Origin: Polymorphobacter multimanifer
Lineage (GTDB): Bacteria > Pseudomonadota > Alphaproteobacteria > Sphingomonadales > Sphingomonadaceae
Length of the DNA stretch: 64,000 bases
Assembly (NCBI RefSeq): GCF_014205635.1
Contig: NZ_JACIIV010000004.1
Coordinates: forward strand, 1-64,000
Direction: 5' to 3'
Shown: positions 21,330 through 53,159 of the stretch, in pieces
Layout of the letters: every line of letters begins with the position of its first letter
Numbering within the stretch: the stretch's first letter is position 1
Translations under genes and position numbers: made by a program
Notes under the pieces: generated by a model
Told to the model about the DNA's origin: nothing
The model's input: the letters and a program-made list of their open reading frames with translations, nothing else
Databases searched by the model: none

Positions 21330-21346
21330 CTATATACAGAATACAG
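21330..21346 (+). promoter_or_regulatory. Candidate regulon operator, site 1
   Basis: CTATATACAG, followed by AATACAG, lies 57 bases before the large cytochrome dehydrogenase ATG. It matches the decamer found at six other intergenic sites and has the same strand as the gene. No clear -35 was seen. Confidence 0.5.
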
Positions 21347-21402
21347 TTGCTATAAGGCGGGTGGAGCGCAAAGGATTGCGCCTTGGGGTTGGAGAGCTGG
21401 GC

Positions 21403-24003
21403 ATGCGTTCGGGTGTGAAGATTGTCGGAGGTTTGCTGGCCGGGACGTTGCTGCTGCCATGGGTGATGGCGGAAGCCAACATCGTTCCTGGCCCGCTGAC
21501 CAGCCAGTCCAACAAGCCCTGGCCGGCCTTTTATGCCGATGAGCCCGAGGCCCCCCCGGTGCTGGCACCGGCGGATGCGCTGGCGAGCTTCACCATGGCG
21601 CCGGGGTATCATCTCGAGCTGGTGGCATCCGAACCGCTGGTGAAGGACCCGATCCTGATGGAGTTCGACCCCGATGGCCGGCTGTGGGTGATCGAGCTGC
21701 CGGGCTGGGCGCACAACGACAAGATGGAGAACACCCTCGAGCCGGTGAACCGGCTCGTGGTGCTGGAGGATACCGACGCCGATGGCGTGTATGACAAGCG
21801 CACGGTGTTCATGGACAAGCTGGTGCTGCCACGCGCCTTCAAGATCCTCGACAAGGGCTGTGCGCTGGTGGGCGAGCCGCCGAACCTCTGGAAGGCGTGC
21901 GACACCGATGGTGATCTTGTCGCCGACACGAAGGAAGTGGTGGCGGATACGTTTGGCCGGCTGGGCATCCTCGAACACGGCGCCAACGGCCTTTATTGGG
22001 GCATGGACAACACGCTGGTGGTGTCGGAACACGACTGGAACCTGGCCTATGAGGCCGGCAAATTCCTGACCGTGCCGGGCATCCGCCGCGGTCAATGGGG
22101 TGTGACGCAGGACGATGGCGGGCGCATCTACCGCAACGTCAACACCGATCCGCTGTTCGTGGACTATGTGCCGCCGGGCTATTTCGTCCGCAATCCCAAT
22201 CTTGTGCGCACCAGCGGGCTGTATGAATCGCTGGTGGACCAGGAGACGACCAACATCTGGCCGGCGCACCCGACCTTCGGGCTCAACCGCGGCTACCGGC
22301 GCGAAGTTTTTCGCGAGGACGGCACAGCCTCCTATTATGGCGGCGTGTCGTCGCCGATGATCTACCGCGGCGCGCAGCTGCCCAAGGATGTGCAGGGCCA
22401 GGCGTTCGTGGCGGACGGCGCCACCAACATCGTGCATTTGCTGCGGCTGACCGACGACAATGGCAAGCTGACGGCGCGGGACTTCTACCCCAAGGGCGAA
22501 TTCCTGGCTTCCACCGATGTGCGTTTCCGCCCCACCGCGCTTGCGCCGGGCTGGGACGGCAGCTTCTACATCGTCGACATGTATCGCGGCGTGTCGCAGG
22601 ACGGGCCGCTGCAGACCGATTATCTGCGCGACTGGATCGGCAAGCGCCAGCTGGCGCGCGACACCGGGCGCGGCCGCATCTACCGTGTGGTGGCCGATGG
22701 CATGGGCCGCGATGCCCGGCCGCAGCTTTCCAAGGCGACGACGTCGGAGCTGATCGGGCATCTGTCGCACGCCAACGGCTGGTGGCGGGACATGGCGCAG
22801 CAGCTGCTGGTGCAGCGCGCCGACAAGGCCGGCATTCCGGCGCTGAAGCGGCTGGCCGCATCGAAGGGCGAGGATGCGCGCCCGCGCCTGCACGCGCTGT
22901 GGACACTGAACGGCCTTGGCGCGATGGAGGCAGAGCTGGCGACACGGGCGCTGACCGACCCATCCGCCGATGTGCGCGCCGCCGGGCTGCGGCTGGCCGA
23001 GCCGTGGCTGAAGACCGGCAAGGGGCCGGTAGTCGCGGCCGTTCTGGGGCGGCTCGACGACGACAACTGGTTCGTGCGCCGGCAGCTTGCCGCAACGCTC
23101 GGTGAACTGCCCGAGGCGATGCGGATGGCGCCGCTGCTGACGCTGCTCAAGCGCTACGGCGACGACAAGATCACCGTCGATGCCGCAGCATCGAGCCTCG
23201 GCGGGCAGGAGGCGCAGGCGCTGGCAGCATTGCTCGACGATCCCGCACCGCCCGCCGATGCGCTGATGATGCTCGCGGCGGCCACCGGCAAGCGGCGTGA
23301 CCCGGCGCTGGCGCAACAGCTGATCGGCCATGCCGGCGATACAGGGCGCGCTGCCCCGGTGCGCGAGGCGATCCTCTCTGGGTTGGCGCTGGGCCTGACC
23401 GGAAGCGTGGGACAGGCCGGGAATGCCGTGGCCGGTGGCCGGGCCGGGGGCGCGATCCCGGGTGTGGGGCCGCAGCGGGCCGGGCCGCAGCGCTTTGCCA
23501 TGCCGGCCGAGCCGCAGGGCTTGACGACCCTCGCTGGCAGCAATGGGCCGCTGGCGGGCAAGGCGCGCGAAGTGCTCGGTCTGATCACCTGGCCCGGTCG
23601 GCCGGCACCGCCGGCGCTTGCGGCCCGCAGCGAGCAGGAGGAGCGGCTCTATCTTGCCGGCAAGGCGCTTTATGCCGAACAATGCGCTGGCTGCCACCAG
23701 ATGCAGGGCCAGGGCGCGCCCAATGTGGCAGTGGCGCTTGCCGGATCGAAGCGCGTGGTGGATGCAGGCCATATTCCGGTGCGCATCCTCACCAACGGCT
23801 ATGAGGGCAAGATCGGGCTGATGCCGCCGCTGGGTGCCGCGATGAGCGACGAGGAGCTGGCAGCGCTGCTGACCTACACAAGGCAATCCTGGGGCAACAC
23901 CGGGTCGCCGATCCCGCCGGCGGCGGTGAAGGAGTGGCGGCTGGCCTTTGCGCACCGCGAAATGCCCTGGACGGCCGAAGAGCTTGCCCAGCCGATCCGG
24001 TAG
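21403..24003 (+). CDS. PVC-type membrane-bound dehydrogenase with HEAT-like region and cytochrome c domain
   Basis: This 866-residue protein starts at an ATG with GGAGAG upstream and has an N-terminal signal helix (about residues 7-24). Residues ~60-430 form a beta-propeller resembling the 'putative membrane-bound dehydrogenase' domain best known from Planctomycetes (DPDGRLWVIELPGWAHNDK, DTDADGVYD). Residues ~440-640 look like HEAT repeats. A C-terminal cytochrome c domain (about 750-830) has C-A-G-C-H and a distal Met (GLMPPLG). It likely oxidises a sugar or polyol in the periplasm and passes electrons to the respiratory chain. The ABC transporter genes follow directly. Confidence 0.8.
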   Translation: MRSGVKIVGGLLAGTLLLPWVMAEANIVPGPLTSQSNKPWPAFYADEPEAPPVLAPADALASFTMAPGYHLELVASEPLVKDPILMEFDPDGRLWVIELPGWAHNDKMENTLEPVNRLVVLEDTDADGVYDKRTVFMDKLVLPRAFKILDKGCALVGEPPNLWKACDTDGDLVADTKEVVADTFGRLGILEHGANGLYWGMDNTLVVSEHDWNLAYEAGKFLTVPGIRRGQWGVTQDDGGRIYRNVNTDPLFVDYVPPGYFVRNPNLVRTSGLYESLVDQETTNIWPAHPTFGLNRGYRREVFREDGTASYYGGVSSPMIYRGAQLPKDVQGQAFVADGATNIVHLLRLTDDNGKLTARDFYPKGEFLASTDVRFRPTALAPGWDGSFYIVDMYRGVSQDGPLQTDYLRDWIGKRQLARDTGRGRIYRVVADGMGRDARPQLSKATTSELIGHLSHANGWWRDMAQQLLVQRADKAGIPALKRLAASKGEDARPRLHALWTLNGLGAMEAELATRALTDPSADVRAAGLRLAEPWLKTGKGPVVAAVLGRLDDDNWFVRRQLAATLGELPEAMRMAPLLTLLKRYGDDKITVDAAASSLGGQEAQALAALLDDPAPPADALMMLAAATGKRRDPALAQQLIGHAGDTGRAAPVREAILSGLALGLTGSVGQAGNAVAGGRAGGAIPGVGPQRAGPQRFAMPAEPQGLTTLAGSNGPLAGKAREVLGLITWPGRPAPPALAARSEQEERLYLAGKALYAEQCAGCHQMQGQGAPNVAVALAGSKRVVDAGHIPVRILTNGYEGKIGLMPPLGAAMSDEELAALLTYTRQSWGNTGSPIPPAAVKEWRLAFAHREMPWTAEELAQPIR

Positions 24004-24004
24004 C

Positions 24005-24937
24005 ATGGCGCGCCTTGCCGACTCCGGGGCGCCGCTGCTGGCGGTGGCGGGGCTGGTGAAGCGCCATGGCACGACCGCGGCGGTGGCCGGCGTGGACCTG
24101 ATGGTGGCGCCGGGCGAGATCGTGGGGCTGCTGGGGGCAAACGGCGCCGGCAAGACCAGCCTGATCGAATGCATCGCCGGGCTGGCGACGCCCGATGCGG
24201 GGACGATCCGCATCGCCGGAGTCGATGCTGGAGCCGACCCGCGGGGAGCGCGGCGGCTGTGCGGGGTGGCGTTGCAATCGACGGGGTTGCCGCCGCGGTT
24301 GACGGTGGCCGAGACGGTGGCGCTGTTTGCAGTGCTGCATGGCGGCGCCGACACCGATGGCCTGATCGATCGGTTCGGGCTGGCCGGCAAGGCGGGAGCG
24401 CGCTGCGAGACGCTTTCGGGCGGGCAGCGCCAGCGGCTGGCGCTGGCACTGGCGCTGATCGGCGATCCGCCGCTGCTGATCCTCGACGAGCCAGGGGCCG
24501 GGCTCGATCCGGCAATCCGCGACGACTTCCATGGCCTTATCGAAACGTTGCGCAGCAGCGGGCGCGGCCTGCTCATCGCCACCCACGATCTCGCCGAGGC
24601 GGCGCGGCTGTGTGACCGGGTGGTGGTGATGGCGGCGGGACGCGTGGTTGCGGCAGGATCGCCGGGGGCGCTGATCGAAGACGCTGGCGGGCTGGTGCGG
24701 CTGCGCGTGCGCACGCGCCCGGCGGTGCCCGACACCGTTGCAGCGGAGATTGCCGGCGACGCACGACTGGCGCAGGACGGCGAGTTGATGGTGTTTTCCG
24801 GCGGCGATCTGCGCGCCGTGCTTGCACGGCTGGGGGCGGCGCTGGCGACCGCTGACATCGCGATTGTCGATATCGCCACCGAAACCGCCAGCCTCGAGGC
24901 ACTGATCGTGGCAATGGTACGGCGTGCCGATGGCTGA
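24005..24937 (+). CDS. ABC transporter ATP-binding protein
   Basis: This 310-residue protein has Walker A GANGAGKTS, a Q-loop (ALQST), signature LSGGQRQR, Walker B LLILDEP and the H-loop ATHDL, followed by a C-terminal extension of about 90 residues typical of the DrrA/CcmA-type exporter family. The start lies one base after the cytochrome gene's stop, and the end overlaps the permease start by eight bases, so the three genes form one operon. The role is export of an unknown substrate or membrane insertion linked to the cytochrome protein. Confidence 0.9.
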   Translation: MARLADSGAPLLAVAGLVKRHGTTAAVAGVDLMVAPGEIVGLLGANGAGKTSLIECIAGLATPDAGTIRIAGVDAGADPRGARRLCGVALQSTGLPPRLTVAETVALFAVLHGGADTDGLIDRFGLAGKAGARCETLSGGQRQRLALALALIGDPPLLILDEPGAGLDPAIRDDFHGLIETLRSSGRGLLIATHDLAEAARLCDRVVVMAAGRVVAAGSPGALIEDAGGLVRLRVRTRPAVPDTVAAEIAGDARLAQDGELMVFSGGDLRAVLARLGAALATADIAIVDIATETASLEALIVAMVRRADG

Positions 24938-26441
24938 GCTTGGCGCCCTGTCGCTGGCGATGGTGCGGATGAACCTGCGCAACCGGATCGCGCTCGTCTA
25001 TGGCTTCGTGTTTCCGCTGCTGTTCCTGGTGGCGTTCTGGGCGCTGTATCGCAATGATCCGGTGCCGCTGGCGCTGCATGCGGGGCAGTTTCTGACGGTG
25101 ACGATCCTGGGGGCAGCGTGCTTCGGGCTGCCGACGCAGATGGTGAGCGAGCGAGAGGCCGGCATCTGGCGTCGCTTCCGGCTGACGCCGACGCCCACGC
25201 CGGTGTTCGTGGGAGCGACGCTGCTGGTGCGGCTGGCGCTGCTGCTGGCGGCCGTGGCGCTGCAACTGCTGCTGGCGCGCGCGCTCGGGATGCCGTGGCC
25301 GGTCCACCCCATCGGCCTCGCGGTGGCGCTGCTGGCGGCGAGCTTTGCTTTTCTGGGGCTGGGTGCCGTCATCGCCATGCTGGTGCCCAATGTGCCGGCG
25401 GTGCAGGCGCTCGGCCAGTGCCTGTTCCTGCCGATGCTGATCGTCGGCGGTGTGGCGGTGCCGCTCACCAGCCTTCCCGATTGGGCGCTGACGCTGTCCG
25501 TGTTCCTCCCCGGCCGCCATGCAGTGACGGCGCTGCAGGCCAATGTGACCGGGCTCGGCATAAGTGCGGTCCGGTTCGAGCTGGGGGCGCTGGTGGTGAT
25601 CGGCGGGGCGGCCTTTGCTGCGGCATCGGCCCTGTTCCGCTGGCAGCCGGTGGCGCCGGCGCGCAGCGGCAGGACGACCGGCTGGCTGCTTGTGGCGCTC
25701 GCCGCCTGGGGTGCTGTGGGGTTGGCGGCGATCGGCACCGGCCGCGTGGCCCCTGCCGGCCGCGACATCGCCCGGATCGGGCCGGTGACGGATTTTCTGG
25801 CCGCGCCGCCGGTCCCCGCGCGGGAGCAGGCTGCCGACACGCCGGCCGAACCGCCCGTCGCCACCGAACCCGAGAAGGTGCCCGAGCCTGCCCCCGAGCC
25901 CGTAATCGCGCCGCTGCCCCCGCCGCGCCCGCCGGGCTGGCAAGCCGTGGGACCGGCAGACTATGCGCGGATCGCCTTTGAAGCGCTGCCGCCCGATGGC
26001 GGGCTGGTGTCGCCCATCGCGTCGGCCGGCGAAGCGATGGACCCGGTGGTGGCCGAGCAGATCGCACTGCTGAGCGTGCGGCTGCCATCGTGGCCGCCCG
26101 CCAAGGTGGCGGATCCGGTGCAGCGGGTGCGCAACCTGCTGACGGTGGCGGCGGTGCCCGACCTTCTGCAAATGGACGGCTTCGAGCGCCATGTGCCGCT
26201 GCTGGTGCTGGAGCGGCTGGAGGCGGAGGTGCCGGCGGCGGACCTTCCGAAGCTGCTCTATTGGGTGGCGATGCACCCCGACGAAGGCGACGACAGCGCG
26301 ATTGCCGCACTGGAGCGGTTGCGGTTGCCGGCGACGAGCGAGCCGACCAAGCCGGTGCGCGAGCGGATCATGCTCTATGCGATGAAGCTGCTCGGCCGGC
26401 TGACCGATCAGCCACCGCCGGCAGCGGCGCGGCGCGAGTAG
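24930..26441 (+). CDS. ABC-2 type permease with Pro-rich linker and extra C-terminal domain
   Basis: The 503 residues divide into two parts. The first ~270 residues form an ABC-2 permease: six to seven membrane segments, with the family's conserved region FLPMLIVGGVAVPLTSLPDWA. Then comes a Pro/Glu/Ala-rich linker (about 290-335). The last ~165 residues are soluble and mostly helical (YARIAFEALPPDGGLVSPIA...) and not part of the usual permease. The C-terminal unit may contact the cytochrome protein or the cell wall. The 3' end overlaps the convergent metallo-hydrolase gene by 34 bases. Confidence 0.85.
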   Translation: MAELGALSLAMVRMNLRNRIALVYGFVFPLLFLVAFWALYRNDPVPLALHAGQFLTVTILGAACFGLPTQMVSEREAGIWRRFRLTPTPTPVFVGATLLVRLALLLAAVALQLLLARALGMPWPVHPIGLAVALLAASFAFLGLGAVIAMLVPNVPAVQALGQCLFLPMLIVGGVAVPLTSLPDWALTLSVFLPGRHAVTALQANVTGLGISAVRFELGALVVIGGAAFAAASALFRWQPVAPARSGRTTGWLLVALAAWGAVGLAAIGTGRVAPAGRDIARIGPVTDFLAAPPVPAREQAADTPAEPPVATEPEKVPEPAPEPVIAPLPPPRPPGWQAVGPADYARIAFEALPPDGGLVSPIASAGEAMDPVVAEQIALLSVRLPSWPPAKVADPVQRVRNLLTVAAVPDLLQMDGFERHVPLLVLERLEAEVPAADLPKLLYWVAMHPDEGDDSAIAALERLRLPATSEPTKPVRERIMLYAMKLLGRLTDQPPPAAARRE

Positions 26442-27499
26442 CGGGTCGTCACGCCGGTGCGCGGATTGGCAATGGCAATGGCGCCGGTGTCCGAAACCGT
26501 GACGACAAGATTATGGTCGGTCGCCGCATCGGTGTTGGCGATCCGTTCGGGCGCGGTGTTGGCCTCCGGACTGCGATTGGCAAAATGGAGCTGCCACAGC
26601 GCCATGTCTGGCATGGCGCCCAGCCGCGTGAGCACCGAGCCGTCCCCGCCCTTGGTGGGGCCGTTGGAGACGATCACGACACGCGGCCGAAGCGTTCGGT
26701 AAAGCGGCTCGCTGCCGGCATTCTCGCTGCCATGGTTGCTGGCAAACATGAGATCGACCCGGCCCACGCGGTCGCGGGGGCAGACCAGGCGATTTTCGAG
26801 GCGCAGCGTCGCGTCCCCCAGCGCCAGCAGCCGCGCCTTGCCCCAGCGCAGCAAGACGCCGAGCGACCGCCAGTTCTCTTCACCGCCGTCGCGCTCCTCG
26901 GTGACGGCGGCCTCGCAGGTCGTGCCCGCCCTGCCCTCGCGCGGCAGCACATCGCCGTCGCTGGCGACGGCGGTCATCTCGAGTCCGTCGATCATCAGGC
27001 GGTCGCCGGCTTTCATGATCCGGCGCGGCTTGCCGGCGATGGCGGCTTCGTAGCGCGGATAGCTGTTGACCGGTGCGAAGGGGCCGGGAGTGGTGCCGGG
27101 GGGCGGCATTTCGCGGTTGGGGCCGTGATCGATGAACTCGCCGATCTCGATCAGCGGAATGAGATCGAAGACGCCGCCGACATGATCGGCGTGATAATGG
27201 GTGACGAGGACGTGATCGATGCGCGACAGCCCCGCGGCGCGCGCCGCCGCGACGATCCGCTGGGCGCTGCTGGTGCCGGGCGGCGGGCGCGCCTGTCCCG
27301 GTGCCGGGCGCGGGCCGCCCATGCCGGTCGGAAAGCCGGTATCGATCAGCAGCGATTTGCCACCGGGCGTGATGTAGAGATTGGCGGCACCGCCTTCGAC
27401 ATCGATGGCGATGAGCCGCATGTCCCTGGCCGCGGCGGGCGCGCACGCGAGGCCCGCCGCCAGCGCAAGAGCGATCATGGGGGGTGCGATGCGGGTCAT
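26408..27499 (-). CDS. Exported metallo-beta-lactamase-fold hydrolase (ComEC-like)
   Basis: This 363-residue protein has a signal peptide of about 24 residues. The MBL zinc motif T-H-Y-H-A-D-H-V-G-G is near residue 100, with further ligands in LALGDATLR and FASNHGSEN, the pattern of the ComEC/Rec2-like branch. Because it is secreted, it may hydrolyse a lactone or ester in the periplasm; I infer this from the sugar-oxidation context only. It is the last gene of a five-gene minus-strand operon and overlaps galM by four bases. Confidence 0.8.
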   Translation of the reverse strand: MTRIAPPMIALALAAGLACAPAAARDMRLIAIDVEGGAANLYITPGGKSLLIDTGFPTGMGGPRPAPGQARPPPGTSSAQRIVAAARAAGLSRIDHVLVTHYHADHVGGVFDLIPLIEIGEFIDHGPNREMPPPGTTPGPFAPVNSYPRYEAAIAGKPRRIMKAGDRLMIDGLEMTAVASDGDVLPREGRAGTTCEAAVTEERDGGEENWRSLGVLLRWGKARLLALGDATLRLENRLVCPRDRVGRVDLMFASNHGSENAGSEPLYRTLRPRVVIVSNGPTKGGDGSVLTRLGAMPDMALWQLHFANRSPEANTAPERIANTDAATDHNLVVTVSDTGAIAIANPRTGVTTRYSRRAAAGGG

Positions 27500-28626
27500 T
27501 GCTTCTTCCAGAACGGCGTGCGGTCGGTGGAGAAAACGAACTCGGTGGCCGACTGGAAGGTTTCGCCCGGGCGCAGGACGGTGGAAGGGAAATTCGGCCG
27601 GTTGGGGCTGTCGGGGAAGTGCTGGGTTTCGAACGCCACGCCGTCCGACTGGCGCAGCACGCGGCCGCCGGCGCCGATCTGCGCGCCGCTGAGCTGGTTG
27701 CCGGTGTAGATCTGCACCCCGGGCTCGGTGGTGCGAACCTCCATCTGGCGACCGCTGACCGGATCGTGCAGCCGCACTGCCGTCGCCAGCACGCCGGGGG
27801 CTGCGTCGAGGACGAAATTATGGTCGATGCCCTTGGCCAGCTGCAATTGCGGATGCACGGCGTAGAGCGCCGAACCGAGCGTTGCCGGGCGGGCGAAATC
27901 GAACGGCGTGCCGGCGACGGGGGCAAGCTCGCCGGTGGGGATCTGCTTTTCGTCGGTGGGGGTGTAGCGCCGCGCCAGCACCTGCATGACATGGCCATAG
28001 ACCGGGCCCGACGCGGCACCGCCGAGATTGAAGTAGCTGTGGTTGGTGAGGTTGATGATGGTCGGCTTGTCGGTGGTGGCGACATAGTCGATACGCAGCG
28101 CGCCGGCGTCGGTGAGCGTGTAGGTCATCGTCAGCTTGAGCGTGCCGGGATAGCCATTGTCGCCATCGGGGCTGGTGAAGCGCATGATGGCGCCGGCGGT
28201 GGTGGCCGTCTCGAAGGTTTCCACATCCCAGAGTTTGGACGCCAACCCGCCGGGGCCGCCATGGATGGCAACGCCGGTGTTGGGGTTGGAGGGCAGCTTG
28301 TGGAAGGTGCCATCGAGCGTGAAGCCACCGCCGGCGATGCGGTTGGCATAGCGGCCGACGACGCTGTTGAACGACCCGGCCTTTTCCCAGGCGGCGAAAT
28401 CGGGCTTGCCCAGCACGATGTTGGCCAGCTTGCCGGCGCGGTCGGGTGCCAGGATCTCGGTGATGGTGCCGCCGCGCGCCGAAAAGCGGACGATATGTCC
28501 GGCCTTGTTGGTCAGGGTGACGAGTCGCACGGTCTCGCCGGCTTGCGACGTGCCGAAGACGCTGGTCTGCGCCGTGCCGGCATAGACGGGGCTTGCCAGC
28601 AACAGCGAGGCGAGGATGAGCTTCAT
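27496..28626 (-). CDS. galM: Exported aldose 1-epimerase (galactose mutarotase)
   Basis: This 376-residue protein has a cleavable signal peptide (about residues 1-17), implying a periplasmic mutarotase. Family motifs include GRYANRIAGGGFTLDG, the conserved His in AIHGGPGG, the catalytic His/Tyr region NLTNHSYFNL and the catalytic Glu in AFETQHFPDSPN. The enzyme interconverts alpha and beta anomers of aldoses, supplying the correct anomer for the quinoprotein dehydrogenase encoded just upstream. Four-base ATGA overlaps link it to both neighbours. Confidence 0.92.
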   Translation of the reverse strand: MKLILASLLLASPVYAGTAQTSVFGTSQAGETVRLVTLTNKAGHIVRFSARGGTITEILAPDRAGKLANIVLGKPDFAAWEKAGSFNSVVGRYANRIAGGGFTLDGTFHKLPSNPNTGVAIHGGPGGLASKLWDVETFETATTAGAIMRFTSPDGDNGYPGTLKLTMTYTLTDAGALRIDYVATTDKPTIINLTNHSYFNLGGAASGPVYGHVMQVLARRYTPTDEKQIPTGELAPVAGTPFDFARPATLGSALYAVHPQLQLAKGIDHNFVLDAAPGVLATAVRLHDPVSGRQMEVRTTEPGVQIYTGNQLSGAQIGAGGRVLRQSDGVAFETQHFPDSPNRPNFPSTVLRPGETFQSATEFVFSTDRTPFWKKQ

Positions 28627-32171: not shown

Positions 32172-32300
32172 CACCACTGGCCGGGTGACCGGATGCCGGT
32201 TGACCCCGAGATGCGCTTCCCCATGATAATCCCTTGTTTTTCTGACGACATGCAGCAGCACTTTACTCTGTGCGCCGCCCCCATCGGTCGACAGCTTTCG

Positions 32301-32332
32301 ATGTATACTAAATACCATTTTCTGCTTGTCAA
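32301..32332 (-). promoter_or_regulatory. Promoter and candidate regulon operator, site 2
   Basis: Minus-strand TTGACA at 32332-32327 lies 16 bases before TAGTATACAT (32310-32301), whose first six bases could act as the -10. It is positioned for the MFS operon, with a leader of about 130 bases. It also lies upstream of the divergent SDR gene at 32440. The layout is the same as at 47228-47259. Confidence 0.65.
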
Positions 32333-38105: not shown

Positions 38106-38126
38106 CACTGTATACAGTGCTGTCAA
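38106..38126 (-). promoter_or_regulatory. Promoter -35 and 14-bp palindromic operator, site 3
   Basis: A perfect palindrome, CACTGTATACAGTG (38106-38119), lies one base from a minus-strand TTGACA (38126-38121), so a bound protein would cover the promoter spacer. It faces the receptor gene starting at 37845. This is the most symmetrical member of the seven-site family. The rest of the 293-base interval holds nothing obvious. Confidence 0.65.
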
Positions 38127-42188: not shown

Positions 42189-42219
42189 TTGACACAGTCC
42201 GAGTGTCTTCTATATGCAC
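42189..42219 (+). promoter_or_regulatory. Promoter and candidate regulon operator, site 4
   Basis: TTGACA (42189-42194) is followed after 15 bases by CTATATGCAC (42210-42219), the most divergent member of the decamer set. It is positioned to drive the dehydratase-GntR-FAH unit. The ATG is at 42257 after GGGGA. Confidence 0.55.
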
Positions 42220-44963: not shown

Positions 44964-45809
44964 ATGAAATTCCTGCGTTATGGCCCACGCGGCCAGGAGA
45001 AGCCTGCGGTGCTCGACGCCGAGGGGCAGGTGCGGTGCCTGTCGGCGCATGTCACCGACATCGATGGCAGCTTCCTTGCACAACGCGACGTCATCATGGC
45101 GGGGATCGACCTTGCCAGCCTGCCGCATGTGGCCGAGCCGGGGCGGATTGCCGAGCCGGTGGCGCGGGTGGGCAAATTTGTCTGCATCGGTCTCAACTAC
45201 CGCGACCATGCGATCGAGGCCGGCATGCCGATCCCTTCGGAGCCGATCGTGTTCATGAAAGCGACGTCGGCGATCATCGGACCCGATGATGACGTGCTGC
45301 TGCCGCCCACTTCGATGAAGAGCGACTGGGAAGTGGAGCTTGGTGTCGTGATCGGCAAGGATTGCCGCTACGTATCCGAAGCCGATGCCATGGATCATGT
45401 GGCGGGGCTGTGCGTGGTCAACGACCTGTCGGAGCGCGAATATCAGCTCGAGCGGGGCGGCCAGTGGGACAAGGGCAAGGGCTGCGATACCTTCGGGCCA
45501 TTCGGGCCATGGCTGGTGACGCTCGATGAGGTGGCAGATATCGACAATCTCGACATGTGGCTCGATGTGAACGGCGTGCGCATGCAGACCGGCAACACGT
45601 CGACGCTGATCTTCAACGTGCCGCATATCGTCCATTATCTGAGCCAGTTCATGTCGCTGCAGGCCGGCGACATCATCAGCACCGGCACGCCGTTCGGCGT
45701 CGGCATGGGGCGCAAGCCCCCGGTCTATCTGGCCGAAGGGGATGTGATGACGCTCGGGATCGCGGGGCTGGGCGCGCAGCGGCAGCAGGTGCGGCGCTGG
45801 CCGGGCTGA
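44964..45809 (+). CDS. FAH-family 2,4-diketo-3-deoxy-acid hydrolase
   Basis: This 281-residue protein starts after AAGGA. It has the fumarylacetoacetate-hydrolase fold with metal ligands in SDWEVELGVVIG (Glu/Glu), the Asp in VVNDLSERE, and the substrate loop LERGGQWDKGKGCDTFGPFGPW. That layout is characteristic of L-2,4-diketo-3-deoxyrhamnonate/fuconate hydrolase (LRA6-like) enzymes. These cleave 2,4-diketo-3-deoxy-acids to pyruvate plus lactate (from 6-deoxyhexoses) or glycolate (from pentoses). With glcDEF nearby, glycolate release is attractive, though the sugar cannot be fixed from sequence. Confidence 0.85.
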   Translation: MKFLRYGPRGQEKPAVLDAEGQVRCLSAHVTDIDGSFLAQRDVIMAGIDLASLPHVAEPGRIAEPVARVGKFVCIGLNYRDHAIEAGMPIPSEPIVFMKATSAIIGPDDDVLLPPTSMKSDWEVELGVVIGKDCRYVSEADAMDHVAGLCVVNDLSEREYQLERGGQWDKGKGCDTFGPFGPWLVTLDEVADIDNLDMWLDVNGVRMQTGNTSTLIFNVPHIVHYLSQFMSLQAGDIISTGTPFGVGMGRKPPVYLAEGDVMTLGIAGLGAQRQQVRRWPG

Positions 45810-45815: not shown

Positions 45816-46292
45816 TCAGCGGGCTTCGGCGAGGGCCTTCATCGACTGCAGTGCCTGGGCGAACCGGGCCTGCAGCCTGGCCCGCTCGGAAATCCGCAGC
45901 GCGTCGGATGCCAGCGCCGCCTGATCGTAGACCAGCGTGTAGCTGAGCCTTGTTTCGCTATCTTTCTTGCCACCGGGCTCGGCGGCCAGCGTGCCGTGCA
46001 ACCCGGCGGCAGCAAGGTTTCCGACAGTCTGCCAGTAGGTGTAGGAGCGCGCTGTCCTCGCGACCATCGGTTCGACAACGGTGCCGTTGACGAGCTTTCG
46101 CACGAGACCGGGCTCACCCGAACCTTCCAGCGTGCATGTTGTCGGCAGCCATTCGGCAATGGCGCAATAGCCGCCGACGCGCGCCCAGACGGCATCGGCG
46201 GGCGCGGCGACGATCAGCTCATTGCGGACGACAACATAGTCGGCGGCAGCGGCCGGCGCGGAGAGCAACATGGCGGCGAGCAGAACACGCAT
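45816..46292 (-). CDS. Exported SRPBCC/START-fold protein
   Basis: This 158-residue protein has a signal peptide of about 19 residues and an SRPBCC-type helix-grip domain: LIVAAPADAVWARVGGYCAIAEWLPTTCTLEGSG near the start is the polyketide-cyclase/dehydrase-like pattern. Its ATG overlaps the ThuA-like stop by one base (TGATG), so it is translated from the same mRNA. The fold binds hydrophobic or small ligands, but the role here is unknown. It converges with the FAH hydrolase gene, with six bases between. Confidence 0.78.
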   Translation of the reverse strand: MRVLLAAMLLSAPAAAADYVVVRNELIVAAPADAVWARVGGYCAIAEWLPTTCTLEGSGEPGLVRKLVNGTVVEPMVARTARSYTYWQTVGNLAAAGLHGTLAAEPGGKKDSETRLSYTLVYDQAALASDALRISERARLQARFAQALQSMKALAEAR

Positions 46293-47167
46293 CACTTGCC
46301 CGCCGCACCGCCGCGCTGCGGGCGCGCGGGGGGCACATAATCAACCAGTGAATCGACCGGCTGCTTGCCGGCCCAGGCGATGCCGCGCAGCAGCATGTCG
46401 CGGATCTGCGGCTTGGCGAAATTCTCGTAGGTGTGGCCCTGCATCCAGACAAAGGCGCGGGCCGGCACCCCGTCCTCGAGGCTGTGCTCATAGGTCCACA
46501 CCTGGGGCACCACCTGGCCGACCCCGCCGCCGCGGCGGGCTGCCGGCGTATCGGGAATCTTCGTGGTGGCGAGGACATGGATCGCTGGCGCCTTGGCCCA
46601 GGTCATCTTGTAAAAGGCTTCGTCGAAGAGCGTGATGTCGGTCATGCCCTTCATGATCGGCGAGCTCTTGTCGACGATCGACAGCGGGATGTCGGCGCCG
46701 AGGGTATAATTGACCTCGCCATGCTTCTTGGCGCCGCCGACATAGGACGCGAACTCCTCGGGATCGGGGCCGCACAGCGGATCGTGCAGCGTCACCAACC
46801 CGCCGCCGCGCTTGATGAAGGCCCGGAGTGCTGCCCGCTCATCGTCGGTCATGTAGCCGGCATCGCCCTTGTACATGACAACGACATCGGTGTTCGCCAG
46901 CTCGCTGGCGCTGGGGGCGTGGAACGACCCGTCGACCACCGCGCCGCGCTCGGTGAGAAGCTTGGACCAGTCGGCGAGAAACTGCGGATAGTCATGCTCG
47001 CCGGCTGCATGAGTCTTGAGGCCGGCGCGCAGATAGACACGCAAGCCATCAGAGTTCTGGCCGGGAATGCGCGGCGAATCGGCAGCCGGCTGCGCGTACG
47101 CGACCTCCGCCGTGGCACCAGCAGCAATCAAGGTGGCACCCCATGTGGCGACCAAAATCATGCGCAT
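46292..47167 (-). CDS. Exported ThuA-like (glutamine-amidotransferase fold) protein
   Basis: This 291-residue protein starts at the ATG preceded by GGGGAG and has a signal peptide of about 24 residues. It is a ThuA-domain protein: KTHAAGEHDYPQFLADWSKLLTERGAVVDGS, LVTLHDPLCGPDPEEF and FVWMQGHTYENF match the trehalose-utilisation ThuA/DUF1037 pattern. ThuA-type proteins often accompany periplasmic sugar-oxidation genes and PVC-type cytochromes. Operator-like site 5 with a TTGACA promoter sits about 60-90 bases upstream. The reaction is not known. Confidence 0.82.
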   Translation of the reverse strand: MRMILVATWGATLIAAGATAEVAYAQPAADSPRIPGQNSDGLRVYLRAGLKTHAAGEHDYPQFLADWSKLLTERGAVVDGSFHAPSASELANTDVVVMYKGDAGYMTDDERAALRAFIKRGGGLVTLHDPLCGPDPEEFASYVGGAKKHGEVNYTLGADIPLSIVDKSSPIMKGMTDITLFDEAFYKMTWAKAPAIHVLATTKIPDTPAARRGGGVGQVVPQVWTYEHSLEDGVPARAFVWMQGHTYENFAKPQIRDMLLRGIAWAGKQPVDSLVDYVPPARPQRGGAAGK

Positions 47168-47227: not shown

Positions 47228-47259
47228 ATGTATGCTAAATACATATGGGACGCTGTCAA
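47228..47259 (-). promoter_or_regulatory. Promoter and candidate regulon operator, site 5
   Basis: Minus-strand TTGACA (47259-47254) lies 16 bases before TAGCATACAT (47237-47228), matching site 2 in sequence and spacing. It drives the ThuA-SRPBCC unit. Confidence 0.65.
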
Positions 47260-47403: not shown

Positions 47404-47437
47404 TTGACGAACCACCGGAATTACACACAATATACAG
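47404..47437 (+). promoter_or_regulatory. Promoter and candidate regulon operator, site 6
   Basis: TTGACG (47404-47409) is followed 18 bases later by CAATATACAG (47428-47437). It is on the strand of the receptor gene that starts at GTG 47499. Confidence 0.6.
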
Positions 47438-47498: not shown

Positions 47499-50400
47499 GT
47501 GAAAATCAATGCATGGCTCCGTGCCGGATTTCTGCTGGGCACCTGCGGGGCCGCCGTCGGCGCAGCACAGGCGCAGACGGTCGGCATCCCGGCCGGTCCG
47601 TCACCCTCGGTCGGGCGATCGACAACCGATCAACCTCTGCAGAACCCGGTGATCACCAGGTCCGACGATCGGGACGCCGAAAGGGTCGGTACCGCAAGTG
47701 CGGCGTCGCAGAGTGGCGCCGAACAGGAGATGGTTGTCACAGGATCGCGTATTGTTGCAAATGGCTATAGCGCGCCGACGCCGGTGACGGTGGTGACCAC
47801 CACCGAACTGTTGAAAAAAGCGCCCGAATCGATCGCCGCCGGCCTCAACCGGCTGCCGCAGTTTGTCGGCACGGCCGGCGCCAATGTCAGGTCCGGGCAA
47901 GGCGGCACGCCGTCTGCGGGCAACTACCTCAACCTGCGCAGGCTGGGGGCCATCGAGACGCTGCTGCTGCTCGATGGCCAGCGGCTGCCGCCAACAAGCT
48001 TCGATGGCACAACCGATGCCAACATCATCCCGCAGGCGCTCATCCAGCGCGTCGATGTCGTGACCGGCGGCGCGTCGGCTGCCTATGGTTCCGATGCCGT
48101 CGCCGGCGTGGTGAACTTCATCCTCGATACCAAGTTCGAGGGCGTCAAGGCATCGGCGCAGACAGGCATTTCGAGCCGCGGCGACGGCGAGCAGCAGCGC
48201 TTCGCCATTGCTGGCGGCAAGTTCTTCATGGACAATCGCCTGCACCTCGAAGCCAGCTTCGATTATTTCAACCAGCCCGGTGTCCCCACCAGCGAAGGCC
48301 GTCCATTCGGCGGTGACTATCAAGGCGGCTGGGTCAATGTCGGCGCCAATCCGGCCCGGCCCTGTGCGGCCGGCGCCTGTCCCGAAAACCCCTTTACGCC
48401 GATGTTCAACGTCCGTTTGGCCCGCGGCACCTATGGCACGTTGATCGGCAATGGCCGCACCAACGCCCAGTCGGAGCTTCGCTCCGGAGGCCGCGCCTTC
48501 AGCCTCACCGGTTTCACCTTCGAGCCGACACTGGTCGGCGGGCCGGTCTCCGCCCAGGGTGTCAAGCGCGCCGATCTCGGGACACCGACCGGAACGCCGT
48601 TCTACAACGTCGGCGGCGCCGACACCTCGGTGACCTTCGGCGCAAGCCTGACGTCCGACGTCGAGACCAAGCAGGGCTTCGGCCGCGCCGACTATGAATT
48701 CAGCGACAATGTTTCGGCCTTCCTTCAGGGCAGCTACAGCGACGCCGACACGCGTTATGTGACCGTCGGCGCGGGAACGCAGTTCGATTCCTTCCAGATA
48801 TTCTCCGACAACGCATTTCTGCCCACTTTTGTCGCGGATACGATGCGCGCCGAGGGCGTATCCTCCTTTGTCGCCAGCCGCGTCGAGGCCGACCAGGCTC
48901 CCAAGTTGGTGCTGACCAACAACAAGGCATGGACCGTGCTCGGCGGCTTCAAGGGCAACTATGACAGCATCAACTGGAGCATCAATTTCAGCCATGGCCA
49001 GTCGAAGCTCCAGACCGAGCATTTCGGCAATTTCGACCAGCCGAAATGGTTTGCATCGCTCGACGCCGTCGATGCCGGCCAACTGGCAGGCGGACCGCGC
49101 AACGGCAACATTATCTGTCGATCGGACGTGACGCTGCCGGGGCTGTTCCCGGGCTGCAAGCCCTGGAACCCGTTCGGCAACGGCTCGCCATCGGCCGAAT
49201 CGTACAGCTATTTCCAGGATGAGCCATCGCGCTACGAGGTCGATCAACGGCAGACGGCGTTCGCTGCCAACGTCTCCGGCGGCCTTTTCGAGCTGCCGGC
49301 GGGCACTGTAAACTTCGCGGTCGGCGGTGAATATCGCCGGCAACGGCTCGAACAAATCTCCAACGTCGATCCGAGCCGGCCGATCCCACTGTACGAGCCA
49401 GGGTTCAGCGAGAGTTCCGCCACCAACCCCGCCAATCTCAATGGCATACCGGAGGGGCTGCGCACTGCGGCGCTGCCGTTCAACCTGCGCTGGAACTCGA
49501 CCAACGTCGGCAACAGCTTCGGCAAGCAGAACATCGGCGAAGTCTATGGCGAAATCGCGGTGCCGCTGCTCGCCGACCAGCCGTTCTTCGATCGTCTCGA
49601 TGTCAACGGTGCCGTCCGCTACACCGATTACAGCGTCACCGGTGGCATCTGGGCCTGGAAGATTGGCGGCAGCTGGTCGCCGGTGCAGGAGTTGCGCTTC
49701 CGTGGTACCTGGTCGCAGGATATTCGCGCACCCACGTTGTACGAGCTGTTCCAGGGCGTCGGATCGACCCGCGGCAACTTCAACGATGTTCACACCGGCG
49801 TGAACACCAACATCATCACCCTCAACGCCGGCAATCCCGATTTGCAGCCGGAAATCGCGCGCACCATTACCGTCGGCGCGATCTGGCAGCCGAGCTTCTT
49901 CCGCAACTTCTCGGTGTCGGTGGACTATTTCAAGATCCGGATCCGCGATCAGATTTCGCGGCCCGGCACCGGGCTCATCAACCAGCTGTGCGAGGATTCG
50001 AACGGCACCGGCCCCACCTGCGCCTTCATCAACCGGCCGCTGCCCTTCGCAGACCGGTCACCGGCCAACTTCCCGCTCACCATCACCACCGCGCCGTTCA
50101 ACCAGGCCAGCGTGGTGACCGAAGGCATCGACTATGAGCTGAACTATCGCCTTGGCCTCGGCGAAGGCCGGGTCGATCTTCGCCTCCTCGGTAACTACAC
50201 GCCGAAATTCACGGCCTCTTCGACCCCGGGAGCGGATCCGCAGATCCTTGCCGGTGCCGCCGCCGGCCTTCCCAAACATCGGTTCACGGCGTCGGTCGAT
50301 TACTCGCGGGACGGCTTCAACTTCGGGCTCGACGTGCGTTACCTGGGCACACTGTTCTACACGCTGCAGCAGAACGTGTTCGTCACCAACAACCGGATCC

Positions 50401-50612
50401 CGCCGGTCGCCTATCTCAACGCCAACATTTCGCAGGACGTTTTGATGGGCAACAACAAGGTTACGTTCTTCCTCAACGCGCAGAACCTCTTCGACAAGTT
50501 CGTGTTCGTGCCCCAGAACAATGGGCAGCCCACACAATTTCCGGCCTATCTGCAGGCGCAGCATGACGTGATGGGCCGCTATTTCGTCGTCGGTGCGCGC
50601 GCCCAGTTCTGA
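47499..50612 (+). CDS. TonB-dependent receptor, very large carbohydrate-type
   Basis: This 1037-residue protein starts at GTG behind AAGGGGAGGGG. A signal peptide (about residues 1-25) is followed by an unusually long N-terminal linker of about 50 residues, the TonB box MVVTGSRIVANG and a plug domain (TPVTVVTTTELLKKAPESIAAGLNRLPQFVG..., GGASAAYGSDAVAGVVNFILD). The barrel contains the sphingomonad NPDLQPE motif and ends RAQF. It is among the larger catabolic receptors, suggesting an oligosaccharide or glycoside cargo. Two hairpins that could terminate transcription follow. Confidence 0.9.
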   Translation: MKINAWLRAGFLLGTCGAAVGAAQAQTVGIPAGPSPSVGRSTTDQPLQNPVITRSDDRDAERVGTASAASQSGAEQEMVVTGSRIVANGYSAPTPVTVVTTTELLKKAPESIAAGLNRLPQFVGTAGANVRSGQGGTPSAGNYLNLRRLGAIETLLLLDGQRLPPTSFDGTTDANIIPQALIQRVDVVTGGASAAYGSDAVAGVVNFILDTKFEGVKASAQTGISSRGDGEQQRFAIAGGKFFMDNRLHLEASFDYFNQPGVPTSEGRPFGGDYQGGWVNVGANPARPCAAGACPENPFTPMFNVRLARGTYGTLIGNGRTNAQSELRSGGRAFSLTGFTFEPTLVGGPVSAQGVKRADLGTPTGTPFYNVGGADTSVTFGASLTSDVETKQGFGRADYEFSDNVSAFLQGSYSDADTRYVTVGAGTQFDSFQIFSDNAFLPTFVADTMRAEGVSSFVASRVEADQAPKLVLTNNKAWTVLGGFKGNYDSINWSINFSHGQSKLQTEHFGNFDQPKWFASLDAVDAGQLAGGPRNGNIICRSDVTLPGLFPGCKPWNPFGNGSPSAESYSYFQDEPSRYEVDQRQTAFAANVSGGLFELPAGTVNFAVGGEYRRQRLEQISNVDPSRPIPLYEPGFSESSATNPANLNGIPEGLRTAALPFNLRWNSTNVGNSFGKQNIGEVYGEIAVPLLADQPFFDRLDVNGAVRYTDYSVTGGIWAWKIGGSWSPVQELRFRGTWSQDIRAPTLYELFQGVGSTRGNFNDVHTGVNTNIITLNAGNPDLQPEIARTITVGAIWQPSFFRNFSVSVDYFKIRIRDQISRPGTGLINQLCEDSNGTGPTCAFINRPLPFADRSPANFPLTITTAPFNQASVVTEGIDYELNYRLGLGEGRVDLRLLGNYTPKFTASSTPGADPQILAGAAAGLPKHRFTASVDYSRDGFNFGLDVRYLGTLFYTLQQNVFVTNNRIPPVAYLNANISQDVLMGNNKVTFFLNAQNLFDKFVFVPQNNGQPTQFPAYLQAQHDVMGRYFVVGARAQF

Positions 50613-50796: not shown

Positions 50797-51093
50797 CTAC
50801 TCCGCCGGAAACGCCTTCGACAGATACGCCGTGATTGCATCGAAATCGGCATCGGTGCCCTGCGCACCGTTGCCGGCCATCGTATCGACCACCCGCGCCC
50901 AGTCCGCCGGCGCCAGCCGCTGCTGCGTCATGATCTCAGGCTCATGACAGCCCGAGCACACCCGCACCGTCGCCTCGCGCCCCTCCCCGGGCGGAAACTG
51001 TGCCAGTTGCTCAACGGTCAGCGCAACCGGCGCCTGCGCAGCGGCTGCCACGCCGAATGCGAGGACTGCGCTGAACACTATCAGGTTACGCAT
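50797..51093 (-). CDS. Small exported cytochrome c-like protein
   Basis: This 98-residue protein starts at the ATG with GGAG eight bases upstream. A signal peptide (about 1-19, ending AAAAQ) precedes one heme motif C-S-G-C-H with a C-terminal Met-poor region (DTMAGNGAQGTDADFDAITAYLSKAF). The pattern resembles quinohemoprotein-associated small cytochromes. It lies 105 bases after the PQQ dehydrogenase gene on the same strand and is probably its electron acceptor. Confidence 0.82.
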   Translation of the reverse strand: MRNLIVFSAVLAFGVAAAAQAPVALTVEQLAQFPPGEGREATVRVCSGCHEPEIMTQQRLAPADWARVVDTMAGNGAQGTDADFDAITAYLSKAFPAE

Positions 51094-51147
51094 GGGGAAC
51101 ACTCCAGCAAAAGACCTCCGGCAACCTGGTATAGCGACGGCACATGA

Positions 51148-51184: not shown

Positions 51185-51198
51185 AAAAATCCTCCACG

Positions 51199-53079
51199 TC
51201 AGCGCGGCAGGCTGAACGCCACCAGCTCATCGGTGGTGAGTTCTGCGCCGATCTGGCCGCCGCCGGTGGCCATGACGGCGACATATTGGCGGCCATCGCC
51301 GCCCTTGTAGGTGGCCGGCGTGGCGCTGGCCGAGCCGCGCAGCCTGTAGGTCCAGATTTCCTTGCCGGTGGCGGTGTCGAAGGCGCGGAAGCGGGCATCG
51401 TCGGTGGCGCCGACGAATGTCAGCCCGCTCGCGGTGGTGATGGCGCCGCCGAGCCCGGGGCGGCCGGTCGCCTGCTTGCCCTGGGGGAGGCTGTCGGTGA
51501 CCCCGAGCGTCGACCGCCACGCGATCTCGCCGGTGTTGACGTTGACGGCCACAAGCTGGCCCCAGGGTGTGGGCCCGCAGGGAAGGTGATTCTCCGGGTT
51601 CCAGAAGCGCCGTGTCCCGGCGAGCGGCCCGGAGTTGGCATAGTTGCCATCGGGCATCTTCACCATGCGCATCGGCTGCGCCAGGTTGCTGACATTGACG
51701 ACGAAAAGCCCGAGCCGGGGGTCGAACGCGCCGCCATAATAATTCACGCCGCCCTGGGTGCCCGGCAGGTTGACCGTGTATCTCTCGAGCAGGATCGGCT
51801 GATAGGGTGTGGCCCCGAGCATCATGTTGTTGTCGTCCACCAGCGCTTCGCACCATGCCTTGTGCTCGGGCGTATCCTTGTAGAGATTGTCGCGTGACAG
51901 GCTCGTCTGCGCCAGCGGCTCGGGCTTCACCGGCCAGGGCTGGGTCGGGCTGGTGCGTTCGCCGGGCACGTTCGTGGGCGGTGCCGGGCGCTCCTCGACG
52001 CCGAATATCGGCTTGCCGGTGCGCCGATCGAGAATGAACATGAGCGCGTTCTTGTTGACCGTCGCCACCGCCGGAATGGTGCGGCCGGCCTTCTTCACAT
52101 CGAACAGCACCGGCTGCGAGGCGGCGTCCCAATCCCAGATGTCGTGATGCGTCACCTGGAAATGCCAGACATATTTGCCGGTGGCGGCATTCACCGCCAC
52201 GACCGAACTGCCGAACAGATTGTCGCCCGGCCGGTCGATTCCCATGCGGTCGTTGTTGGGTGCGCCCACCGGCATGTAGAGCAGCCCACGCGCCTCGTCC
52301 GCGGTGAAATAGCCCCAGACATTGGCGCCGGCGCGGTCCTTCCAGCTCTCCCCGCCCCAGGTCTCGTGGCCGATTTCGCCCGGCCGCGGCACGGTGTGGA
52401 ACTGCCAGACCAGCTTGCCGGTTCGGACATCCCAGGCGCGCACATCGCCGAGCGGACCAAGTGCCGCGGCCTGGTCCGGGCTGCCGCCGCCGGTGATGAT
52501 CAGGTTCTTGAAGACGAATGGCGTTGCCGCCAGCACATAGGGCTTTTCAATTCCCGTGGGCATGACATCGGGCGTTCGCAGGTTGATGTAGCCGCCGGTT
52601 CCGAAGTCCGTTGCCACGGCACCCGTTGTGGCATCGAGCGAGTAGATCCGGCCCGAGCGGGTGCCCACGATCACCGCCGGCTTGCCGCGTCCGCCAGCCT
52701 TGTCTCCGGGCCAATAGGCAACGCCGCGCACGGCCGGACGCTCGTTGTCGGGCAGGGTGAAGGTCCATTTTTCGGTGCCCGTCGCCCCGTCGAGTGCCAC
52801 CACGCGACCATAGGGCGTGGAGACGAACATGGTGCCGCCGATGATGAGGGGCACGGTTTCCGCCGTCACCAGCCGCGTACCCGCCGACCCGTCGGCCGGC
52901 TTCATGTGATACACCCAGGCCTCGCGAAGCTTCGTCACATTGCCGGCATCGATTTCGGCAAGTCCCGAATGGCGCTGCCCGGCGAGGCCCTGGTTGGATG
53001 TGGGCCAGTCGGTCGGCCCGGCCGATGCGGGTGCCGCACTCGCCAATACCGCCATCGCAATGATCTTCACTGGCTGCAT
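51199..53079 (-). CDS. Exported PQQ-dependent dehydrogenase (quinoprotein family)
   Basis: This 626-residue protein has GGGGGA before the ATG and a signal peptide (about 1-20). It is an eight-bladed quinoprotein propeller with tryptophan docking motifs (GVVALDGATGTEKWTFTLPDN-type, LDATTGAVATDFG, AWDVRTGKLVWQFHTVPRPGEIGHETWGGESW, VNAATGKYVWHFQVTHHDIWDWD, GTPWGQL-like closing region). The HHDIWDWD stretch is typical of membrane-type glucose/polyol dehydrogenases, though no membrane anchor is present. It oxidises a sugar, polyol or aldehyde in the periplasm. Operator-like site 7 lies 64-80 bases upstream. Confidence 0.88.
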   Translation of the reverse strand: MQPVKIIAMAVLASAAPASAGPTDWPTSNQGLAGQRHSGLAEIDAGNVTKLREAWVYHMKPADGSAGTRLVTAETVPLIIGGTMFVSTPYGRVVALDGATGTEKWTFTLPDNERPAVRGVAYWPGDKAGGRGKPAVIVGTRSGRIYSLDATTGAVATDFGTGGYINLRTPDVMPTGIEKPYVLAATPFVFKNLIITGGGSPDQAAALGPLGDVRAWDVRTGKLVWQFHTVPRPGEIGHETWGGESWKDRAGANVWGYFTADEARGLLYMPVGAPNNDRMGIDRPGDNLFGSSVVAVNAATGKYVWHFQVTHHDIWDWDAASQPVLFDVKKAGRTIPAVATVNKNALMFILDRRTGKPIFGVEERPAPPTNVPGERTSPTQPWPVKPEPLAQTSLSRDNLYKDTPEHKAWCEALVDDNNMMLGATPYQPILLERYTVNLPGTQGGVNYYGGAFDPRLGLFVVNVSNLAQPMRMVKMPDGNYANSGPLAGTRRFWNPENHLPCGPTPWGQLVAVNVNTGEIAWRSTLGVTDSLPQGKQATGRPGLGGAITTASGLTFVGATDDARFRAFDTATGKEIWTYRLRGSASATPATYKGGDGRQYVAVMATGGGQIGAELTTDELVAFSLPR

Positions 53080-53142
53080 GATCTGTCCCCCAAGGTCTTT
53101 TGCAAGACAATAGGAGACGGATCGCCCGGCGCAAAGCATAAA

Positions 53143-53159
53143 CTGTATACTATCGACAA
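53143..53159 (-). promoter_or_regulatory. Candidate regulon operator, site 7
   Basis: Minus-strand TTGTCG (53159-53154) is followed one base later by TAGTATACAG (53152-53143), the same close -35/operator arrangement as site 3. It is upstream of the PQQ dehydrogenase gene. Confidence 0.55.

Follow-up and report, generated by a model that had tools for sequence, protein, structure and literature searches.

A putative single GntR/FCD-controlled regulon for oxidative aldose breakdown in Polymorphobacter multimanifer

The DNA analyzed here (the window) is a 64-kb stretch of contig C4 within the 3.92-Mb genome of Polymorphobacter multimanifer. About 23 adjacent genes (g16-g38) form a block in the window, and the conclusion that this block makes up a single regulon, in which one GntR/FCD regulator (g32) would act through a shared putative site, is well supported by sequence comparison. 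It is also probable that the regulon serves oxidative aldose breakdown, with D-xylose or its aldonate as the most likely substrate. The model is carried by homologies, active-site residues, gene co-conservation, and operator conservation. Genes of the window were predicted by a codon-usage script and then scanned against Pfam and NCBIfam. All of the gene types that an earlier note on this DNA had listed were located where it had placed them, although its list omitted an ABC transporter ATPase and permease (24005-26441), a metallo-beta-lactamase (MBL)-fold protein (26408-27499), and two short-chain dehydrogenases/reductases (SDRs; 30152-30907 and 32440-33297). The limits that it had drawn (21330-53159) match the first and last operator-like sites (21331 and 53144), but the left limit may be narrow. 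The first site is situated in the g15|g16 gap, which means that g15-g14 may also be controlled.

Palindromes near TGTATACTGTATACA were found in the gaps g15|g16, g23|g24, and g30|g31 and upstream of g27, g35, g36, and g38 (Table 1). When up to two mismatches were allowed, TGTATNCTRWATACA occurred at nine distinct places in the whole 3.92-Mb genome, six of which were inside the block. With at most one mismatch, there were four places genome-wide and all four were inside the block. The reversed control of TGTATNCTRWATACA gave 5 rows in the same genome vs. 11 for TGTATNCTRWATACA itself. A site matrix was also trained on 49 sites, all of them from relatives. In the window, its eight top-scoring positions corresponded to the seven block sites, as two of the positions overlap (21324 and 21331). 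At a threshold of at least 14 bits, the matrix found 8 positions in the 32.5 kb of the block vs. 2 in 1.19 Mb of background, and one position in the same window outside of the block (5307, 14.4 bits). The matrix test is not fully independent because the pattern came from the window and was itself used to choose the training sites beside cluster genes. Better tests of the site are a genome comparison with a stricter pattern and the conservation of site positions.

Clusters in relatives (genomes and loci are given by G and L numbers) were found through the FAH-family hydrolase gene g33, whose presence in them is therefore by selection. None of the examined surroundings of copies of the dehydratase g31 (up to 20 kb per side; 12.5 kb in total in G010) contained the cluster, and g33 was chosen as the anchor for that reason. 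Thirteen clusters were compared, eight from the 80 loci of a g33 search (G149-G155 and G158) and five from genomes of a family-wide g33 search. Three loci with g33 and GlcDEF (G063, G156, and G157, of which G156 also has g31) were excluded as too small. The remaining 70 of the 80 loci were excluded because the hydrolase there lacked such a neighborhood and had at most a g25-like SDR or weak, scattered matches around it. Genes of the relatives' loci were predicted with a simple in-house gene caller. Several of the 13 clusters are contig-end fragments, and gene absences in them are therefore upper bounds.

The GntR gene g32 and g25, like the anchor, were present in all 13 clusters. Three genes (g22, g23, and g24) were each present in 12, g21 in nine, and g16, g17, and g38 in seven each. 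The glycolate oxidase genes g28-g30 and the dehydratase g31 were each found in eight clusters, but the two sets differ and only five clusters had both. The rest of g18-g37 occurred in four to six clusters. The flanks of the window were found in few or none (g1-g13 in 0-1 and g39-g48 in 0-2). The block is not a chance grouping, as each of its genes recurs in 4-13 of the 13 clusters vs. 0-2 for the flanks. The possible extra members g14 and g15 were close to g16 in six and seven clusters, respectively.

Gene order varied among the relatives. Sandarakinorhabdus AAP62 and Novosphingobium piscinae have one run with g26-g33 and g25-g14, and in two Sphingomonadales metagenome-assembled genomes (MAGs) the core is the same but g14-g18 lie separately. 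The run is reshuffled in Steroidobacter agaridevorans, divided into two blocks with one GntR copy per block in Phenylobacterium Root700, and present as two fragments in a Caulobacter MAG. A gammaproteobacterial MAG keeps g31-g33-g30-g29-g28 together and Phenylobacterium J367 keeps g33-g30-g29-g28 together, and five further family genomes carry a cluster variant without g31. Thus, the earlier claim that the units belong together holds: several gene orders keep the same core set, which co-occurs in the 13 clusters, though the subsets differ by lineage. The spread is patchy. A g33 orthologue of at least 69% identity is listed in 8 of 397 family genomes besides the genome under study, and two of these eight belong to its genus, of which 10 other genomes were listed. 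Two details of individual clusters were also observed. The second Root700 block (L183:1-16000) has its own GntR paralogue (58%) along with a TIM barrel, an ABC pair, a PVC protein, and a GSDH, which amounts to a duplicated regulator. In Steroidobacter agaridevorans (L178, about 15.5-18.6 kb), the g36-like TonB receptor appears as two adjacent open reading frames (ORFs; 736 and 277 aa) and may be broken or misread.

Further evidence for a common operator comes from the relatives. The stricter pattern was matched in 13 of 14 cluster-bearing genomes, the exception being G308, and in none of 12 genomes without the cluster; cluster-less here means not listed with a g33 orthologue of at least 69%, on the assumption that unlisted genomes were included in that search. 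Out of these 26 genomes, four (G020, G101, G134, and G155) had a single match to the reversed control of the stricter pattern. All four strict sites of the Steroidobacter genome (8 Mb) were inside the cluster. No strict site was found on the examined cluster stretches of G192, G153, and G154. The strict sites of G192 (one), G153 (one), and G154 (three) all lie outside the examined stretches, as do two of the three in G151. One outlying G151 site is 2 kb beyond the examined stretch on the cluster contig, and the cluster contigs of G151, G153, and G154 are broken. The positions of the sites are conserved as well. A site was present in the g23|g24 gap in all nine relatives that keep that divergence, in the g30|g31 gap in all four relatives that have it, in the g15|g16 gap in six of seven relatives, and at the same place upstream of g27 in all three relatives that keep g28-g27.

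Could the block instead consist of several independent neighboring sugar units, with the site being a chance AT-rich palindrome or the target of another regulator? The variation of cluster subsets among relatives would allow this, as would the fact that binding of the site by g32 is predicted from sequence. Moreover, the window was where the pattern was first derived, which makes the window counts partly circular, and the sole strict match in G192 lies off the cluster contig. However, the sites occupy orthologous gaps across orders and move with the cluster genes when the gene order changes. The constancy of the GntR gene and the lack of any strict site in the 12 cluster-less genomes, set beside the few reversed-control matches, also speak against independent units. 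Such an arrangement is thus very unlikely. The earlier note had tied the units into one regulon by their shared site, and the concentration of the site in the block, its orthologous gaps, and its movement with the cluster support this view. Separately, three sphingomonads have, next to the cluster, a carboxylesterase-type gene that adjoins an operator-like site and that the window's cluster lacks (L172:16206-17831, L170:16182-17792, and L175:4734-6356; PF00135 in the scanned copy, L172).

In the proposed model, TonB receptors would bring the substrate into the periplasm, where the mutarotase g20 may present the right anomer. The cytochrome-fused GSDH g21 and the separate pyrroloquinoline quinone (PQQ) dehydrogenase g38 would oxidize the sugar, with cytochrome c as the electron acceptor. 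Opening of the lactone would follow, for which the MBL-fold protein g19 is a candidate, and the aldonate would be imported via the MFS carrier g23. It is predicted that g31 dehydrates the aldonate to a 2-keto-3-deoxy acid, g25 oxidizes this acid at C4, and g33 cuts the diketo acid into pyruvate and glycolate, which GlcDEF (g28-g30) would convert to glyoxylate. A pathway intermediate probably releases g32 from the palindrome before the units. The substrate, the product, the direction of regulation, and the roles of g16-g19, g22, g24, g26, and g34-g35 are what we infer in this scheme.

The periplasmic entry is suggested by g21 and g38, which are homologous to PQQ dehydrogenases by domain; the best PDB match of g21 is the glucose dehydrogenase 7cdy (228 bits). 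The earlier note had counted three electron-donating dehydrogenases, and these two stand. The third, g16, is only a candidate dehydrogenase, and the sole hint of its kinship with such enzymes is that the PVC model TIGR02604 matches g21 at 31 bits, below the cut-off. A profile comparison (hhalign) of g16 with the GSDH protein aligned the cytochrome domain alone, and the AlphaFold model of g16 is poor (mean predicted local distance difference test score, pLDDT, of 56). Where does PQQ come from? The best PqqE match in the P. multimanifer genome reached 43 bits vs. a cut-off of 381 and PqqC gave no match, and only two of 11 tested cluster genomes (G192 and G155) had both proteins above cut-off. 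With neither pqqC nor pqqE found in the genome, the cell would have to obtain PQQ from outside. Such reliance on external PQQ is reported as a widespread strategy (PMC12124388). The TonB receptor g14 was considered as a PQQ receptor and rejected, as it is BtuB-like. In the G110 cluster, a quinoprotein (L196:6740-8347) that adjoins a cytochrome c and an MBL-fold protein scores above the cut-off of the 'acido-empty-quinoprotein group A' (653.8 vs. 650).

The dehydratase g31 matches best, over its full length, the Caulobacter protein 5OYN in the PDB (957 bits, vs. 785 for a galactonate dehydratase and 485 for an L-arabinonate dehydratase). We take 5OYN to be a D-xylonate dehydratase, though its database name is only 'Dehydratase, IlvD/Edd family'. 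Cysteines 38, 106, and 179 sit in conserved stretches. In a dehydratase tree of 37 rows, from which truncated cluster copies and five loci without gene calls were left out, six cluster copies formed one group (100/98) separate from the non-cluster copies. The Root700 cluster dehydratase fell outside the six-copy group.

One alternative is that the block is an ordinary xylose locus of the Weimberg (Route II) or Dahms (Route I) type. In its favor, 27 of 149 family genomes have, away from the cluster, a dehydratase 68-74% identical to g31; in three of these genomes (G110, G134, and G063), all or part of the cluster is found at another locus. The loci of such copies that were detailed (G091, G134, G110, and G011) appear to be of the Weimberg type, with Pfam covering G110 and one G134 gene. 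However, the Pfam results for g14-g38 include no aldehyde dehydrogenase, no aldolase, and only one FAH protein, which is of the hydrolase type. Furthermore, no operator-like site was found within 300 bases upstream of any of the 27 non-cluster dehydratases. An ordinary xylose locus is thus extremely improbable, and a Weimberg operon was rejected since the required enzymes are missing among g14-g38. A 61% dehydratase paralogue had a two-mismatch site match 105 bases upstream in one of seven loci.

The SDR g25 is 53% identical to the L-2-keto-3-deoxyfuconate (L-KDF) 4-dehydrogenase of Herbaspirillum huttiense and retains its three substrate arginines, Arg148, Arg192, and Arg214. It has Met at the position of Trp252, the residue that faces the C6 methyl in the solved structure of that enzyme. 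The best PDB match of g33 is the 2,4-diketo-3-deoxyrhamnonate hydrolase 8gsr (333 bits), and its HxxE motif is kept (H82..E85). GlcF (435 vs. 333 bits) and GlcE (293 vs. 284 bits) pass their curated cut-offs, and the presence of GlcDEF inside the cluster fits glycolate as the product. By these sequence features, g31, g25, and g33 fit the sugar-acid dehydratase, the NAD-dependent SDR 4-dehydrogenase, and the FAH hydrolase with a His/Glu pair of Route III. This route converts pentoses to pyruvate and glycolate in H. huttiense (PMC6336799). The earlier note had presented the set as a candidate undescribed regulon; as a statement on the pathway this is not supported, since the cytosolic core corresponds to the published Route III.

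A second alternative retains the regulon and the cleavage, but has a 6-deoxy-D-hexose or another sugar acid yielding pyruvate and D-lactate (GlcDEF or Dld) rather than glycolate. In G110, an operator-like site precedes a gene for a cytochrome c and one for a D-lactate dehydrogenase of the Dld type (908 bits, cut-off 391). G227 has, at the same place as the G110 Dld, a 565-aa ORF with a similar start and no site with two or fewer mismatches. The H. huttiense 4-dehydrogenase also binds D-2-keto-3-deoxypentonate (D-KDP), but prefers L-KDF 12-fold (PMC11199699). The lack of a D-xylonate-type dehydratase in five clusters also suits a deoxy sugar. Against it, this dehydratase is present in eight of the 13 clusters and five of these eight also have g28-g30, while the three without g28-g30 are fragments or end at contig borders. 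The Met of g25 in place of the methyl-facing Trp252 points the same way, yet does not decide the matter because Met also occurs at this position in such enzymes (PMC11199699). This second alternative is unlikely.

A number of results weigh against the model of a D-xylose-type substrate cut to glycolate. The dehydratase g31 is absent from the examined stretch in five of the 13 clusters (G192, G110, G227, G308, and G134), and G227, a one-contig genome, has no g31 copy of at least 70% but only a 60% paralogue. G110 carries a Weimberg-type xylose locus in addition to this cluster. Its Dld gene lies behind the operator-like site and its examined stretch contains no GlcDEF, which hints at a product other than glycolate. 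The SDRs g22 and g24 are kept in 12 of 13 clusters though superfluous to Route III, and AAP62-type clusters lack g34-g38. Two of the curated models are not satisfied either: g33 is below the cut-off of NF053535, for 2,4-didehydro-3-deoxy-L-rhamnonate hydrolase (421 vs. 500 bits), and GlcD is below its equivalog cut-off (655 vs. 897 bits). No PqqU-type PQQ receptor was found in any of 11 genomes at E values of at most 1e-40, using a model for which E. coli was the sole positive control. PQQ uptake is therefore hypothetical, and the quinoproteins may even function without this cofactor. The substrate is the weakest part of the model because of the extra SDRs, the dehydratase-free clusters, G227, and the G110 Dld. 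One possibility, which we regard as tentative, is an unpublished route: a PQQ-scavenging cell would oxidize an unusual sugar in the periplasm, g22 and g24 would rework the acid before or instead of dehydration, and one hydrolase cut would yield glycolate (GlcDEF) or D-lactate (Dld) by lineage, all under one GntR operator.

Table 1. Operator-like sites and genes of the block, with two possible extra members; cut-offs are in bits
Feature	Position	Strand	Basis
g14 BtuB-like TonB receptor, possible extra member	18661..20493	-	TIGR01779 147 bits, below cut-off 600
g15 VTT-domain membrane protein, possible extra member	20541..21272	-	PF09335
Operator-like site, g15|g16 gap	21331..21345		1 mismatch to TGTATNCTRWATACA; relatives' matrix 31.8, window maximum
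g16 PVC-type DUF7133/HEAT/cytochrome c protein	21403..24003	+	Pfam/NCBIfam; one CxxCH
g17 ABC transporter ATPase	24005..24937	+	PF00005
g18 ABC-2 permease	24930..26441	+	PF01061
g19 secreted MBL-fold protein, candidate lactonase	26408..27499	-	PF00753, HYHADH motif
g20 secreted aldose 1-epimerase	27496..28626	-	PF01263
g21 cytochrome c + GSDH (PQQ aldose dehydrogenase)	28623..30155	-	PF07995 380 bits; one CxxCH
g22 SDR	30152..30907	-	Pfam; in 12/13 clusters
g23 MFS sugar-acid importer	30921..32177	-	PF07690; 239 bits vs. cut-off 395 for TIGR00893 (galactonate type)
Operator-like site, g23|g24 gap	32302..32316		pattern and relatives' matrix
g24 SDR	32440..33297	+	Pfam; in 12/13 clusters
g25 SDR, predicted 2-keto-3-deoxy-sugar-acid 4-dehydrogenase	33311..34051	+	53% to H. 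huttiense enzyme
g26 Tat-type xylose-isomerase-like TIM barrel	34088..35158	-	PF01261; SRRAAL
g27 TonB receptor	35200..37845	-	PF00593/PF07715
Operator-like site upstream of g27	38102..38116		1 mismatch
g28 GlcF	38139..39446	-	NF008434 435 bits, cut-off 333
g29 GlcE	39451..40602	-	NF008439 293 bits, cut-off 284
g30 GlcD	40605..42089	-	NF008408 655 bits, below cut-off 897
Weak operator-like site, g30|g31 gap	42204..42218		2 mismatches; relatives' matrix 20.9
g31 IlvD/EDD sugar-acid dehydratase, predicted D-xylonate type	42338..44047	+	best PDB 5OYN, 957 bits
g32 GntR/FCD regulator	about 44204..44878	+	PF00392, PF07729
g33 predicted FAH-family 2,4-diketo-3-deoxy-acid hydrolase	44964..45809	+	NF053535 421 bits, cut-off 500
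g34 SRPBCC protein	45816..46292	-	PF10604; in 4/13 clusters
g35 ThuA-like protein	46292..47167	-	PF06283; in 6/13 clusters
Operator-like site upstream of g35	47229..47243		0 mismatches
Operator-like site upstream of g36	47422..47436		relatives' matrix 23.4, second in window; neither pattern matches
g36 TonB receptor	47499..50612	+	PF00593/PF07715
g37 small CxxCH cytochrome	50797..51102	-	PF13442 20 bits, below cut-off 27; CxxCH
g38 soluble PQQ dehydrogenase, glucose/quinate-like	51199..53079	-	PF01011 602 bits; TIGR03074 427 bits, cut-off 833
Operator-like site upstream of g38	53144..53158		2 mismatches; relatives' matrix 21.6

Two neighboring regions of the window were also noted. The region adjoining the cluster (53180-58846) holds genes that presumably correspond to dnaA, rpsT, mutM, ubiE, and ubiB, and in G110 and Phenylobacterium Root700 most of these genes likewise have homologues close to the cluster. 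On the other side, at 9746-15342, there is another sugar-type locus with a luciferase-like monooxygenase, an aldo-keto reductase, a GFO/IDH/MocA protein, and a TonB receptor, which was conserved with the cluster in none of the 13 cases.

With this analysis, a list of sugar genes becomes a testable regulon with one regulator, one site, defined promoters, and a predicted product. Route III, described in Herbaspirillum, gains clusters that add an electron-transport entry in Sphingomonadales, Caulobacterales, and Steroidobacter. A question is also raised as to the source of PQQ for sugar dehydrogenases in cells without detectable pqqC and pqqE. In the open-access literature that was searched, no published account was found of a Route III core together with quinoproteins, an in-cluster glycolate oxidase, and this regulator.

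How does the cluster compare with known systems? In contrast to the Caulobacter protein 5OYN, g31 lies outside any Weimberg-type locus. Xylose oxidation in pseudomonads reportedly relies on a membrane-bound glucose dehydrogenase followed by the Weimberg route, whereas soluble quinoproteins and Route III would be used here. The two systems would be alike in periplasmic sugar oxidation and aldonate import. For pseudomonads, PQQ-dependent xylose oxidation in the periplasm that feeds an oxidative pathway in the cytosol has been reported (PMC10107873). The setting of the H. huttiense L-KDF 4-dehydrogenase (PDB 8XWK/8Y11/8Y4J) differs from the genomic setting of g25 (PMC11199699). Route III of H. 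huttiense likewise has a sugar-acid dehydratase, an SDR 4-dehydrogenase, and a FAH-type hydrolase. In that report, however, entry occurs through an aldose 1-dehydrogenase and a lactonase rather than periplasmic quinoproteins, and the genes are in several separate clusters rather than one block (PMC6336799). The in-cluster GlcDEF, the TonB receptors, and the single GntR operator are present only on this cluster's side of the comparison. Thus, the core pathway is known as Route III and the arrangement is new, namely a periplasmic quinoprotein entry without detectable pqqC/pqqE, GlcDEF inside the cluster, and one putative operator over all units.

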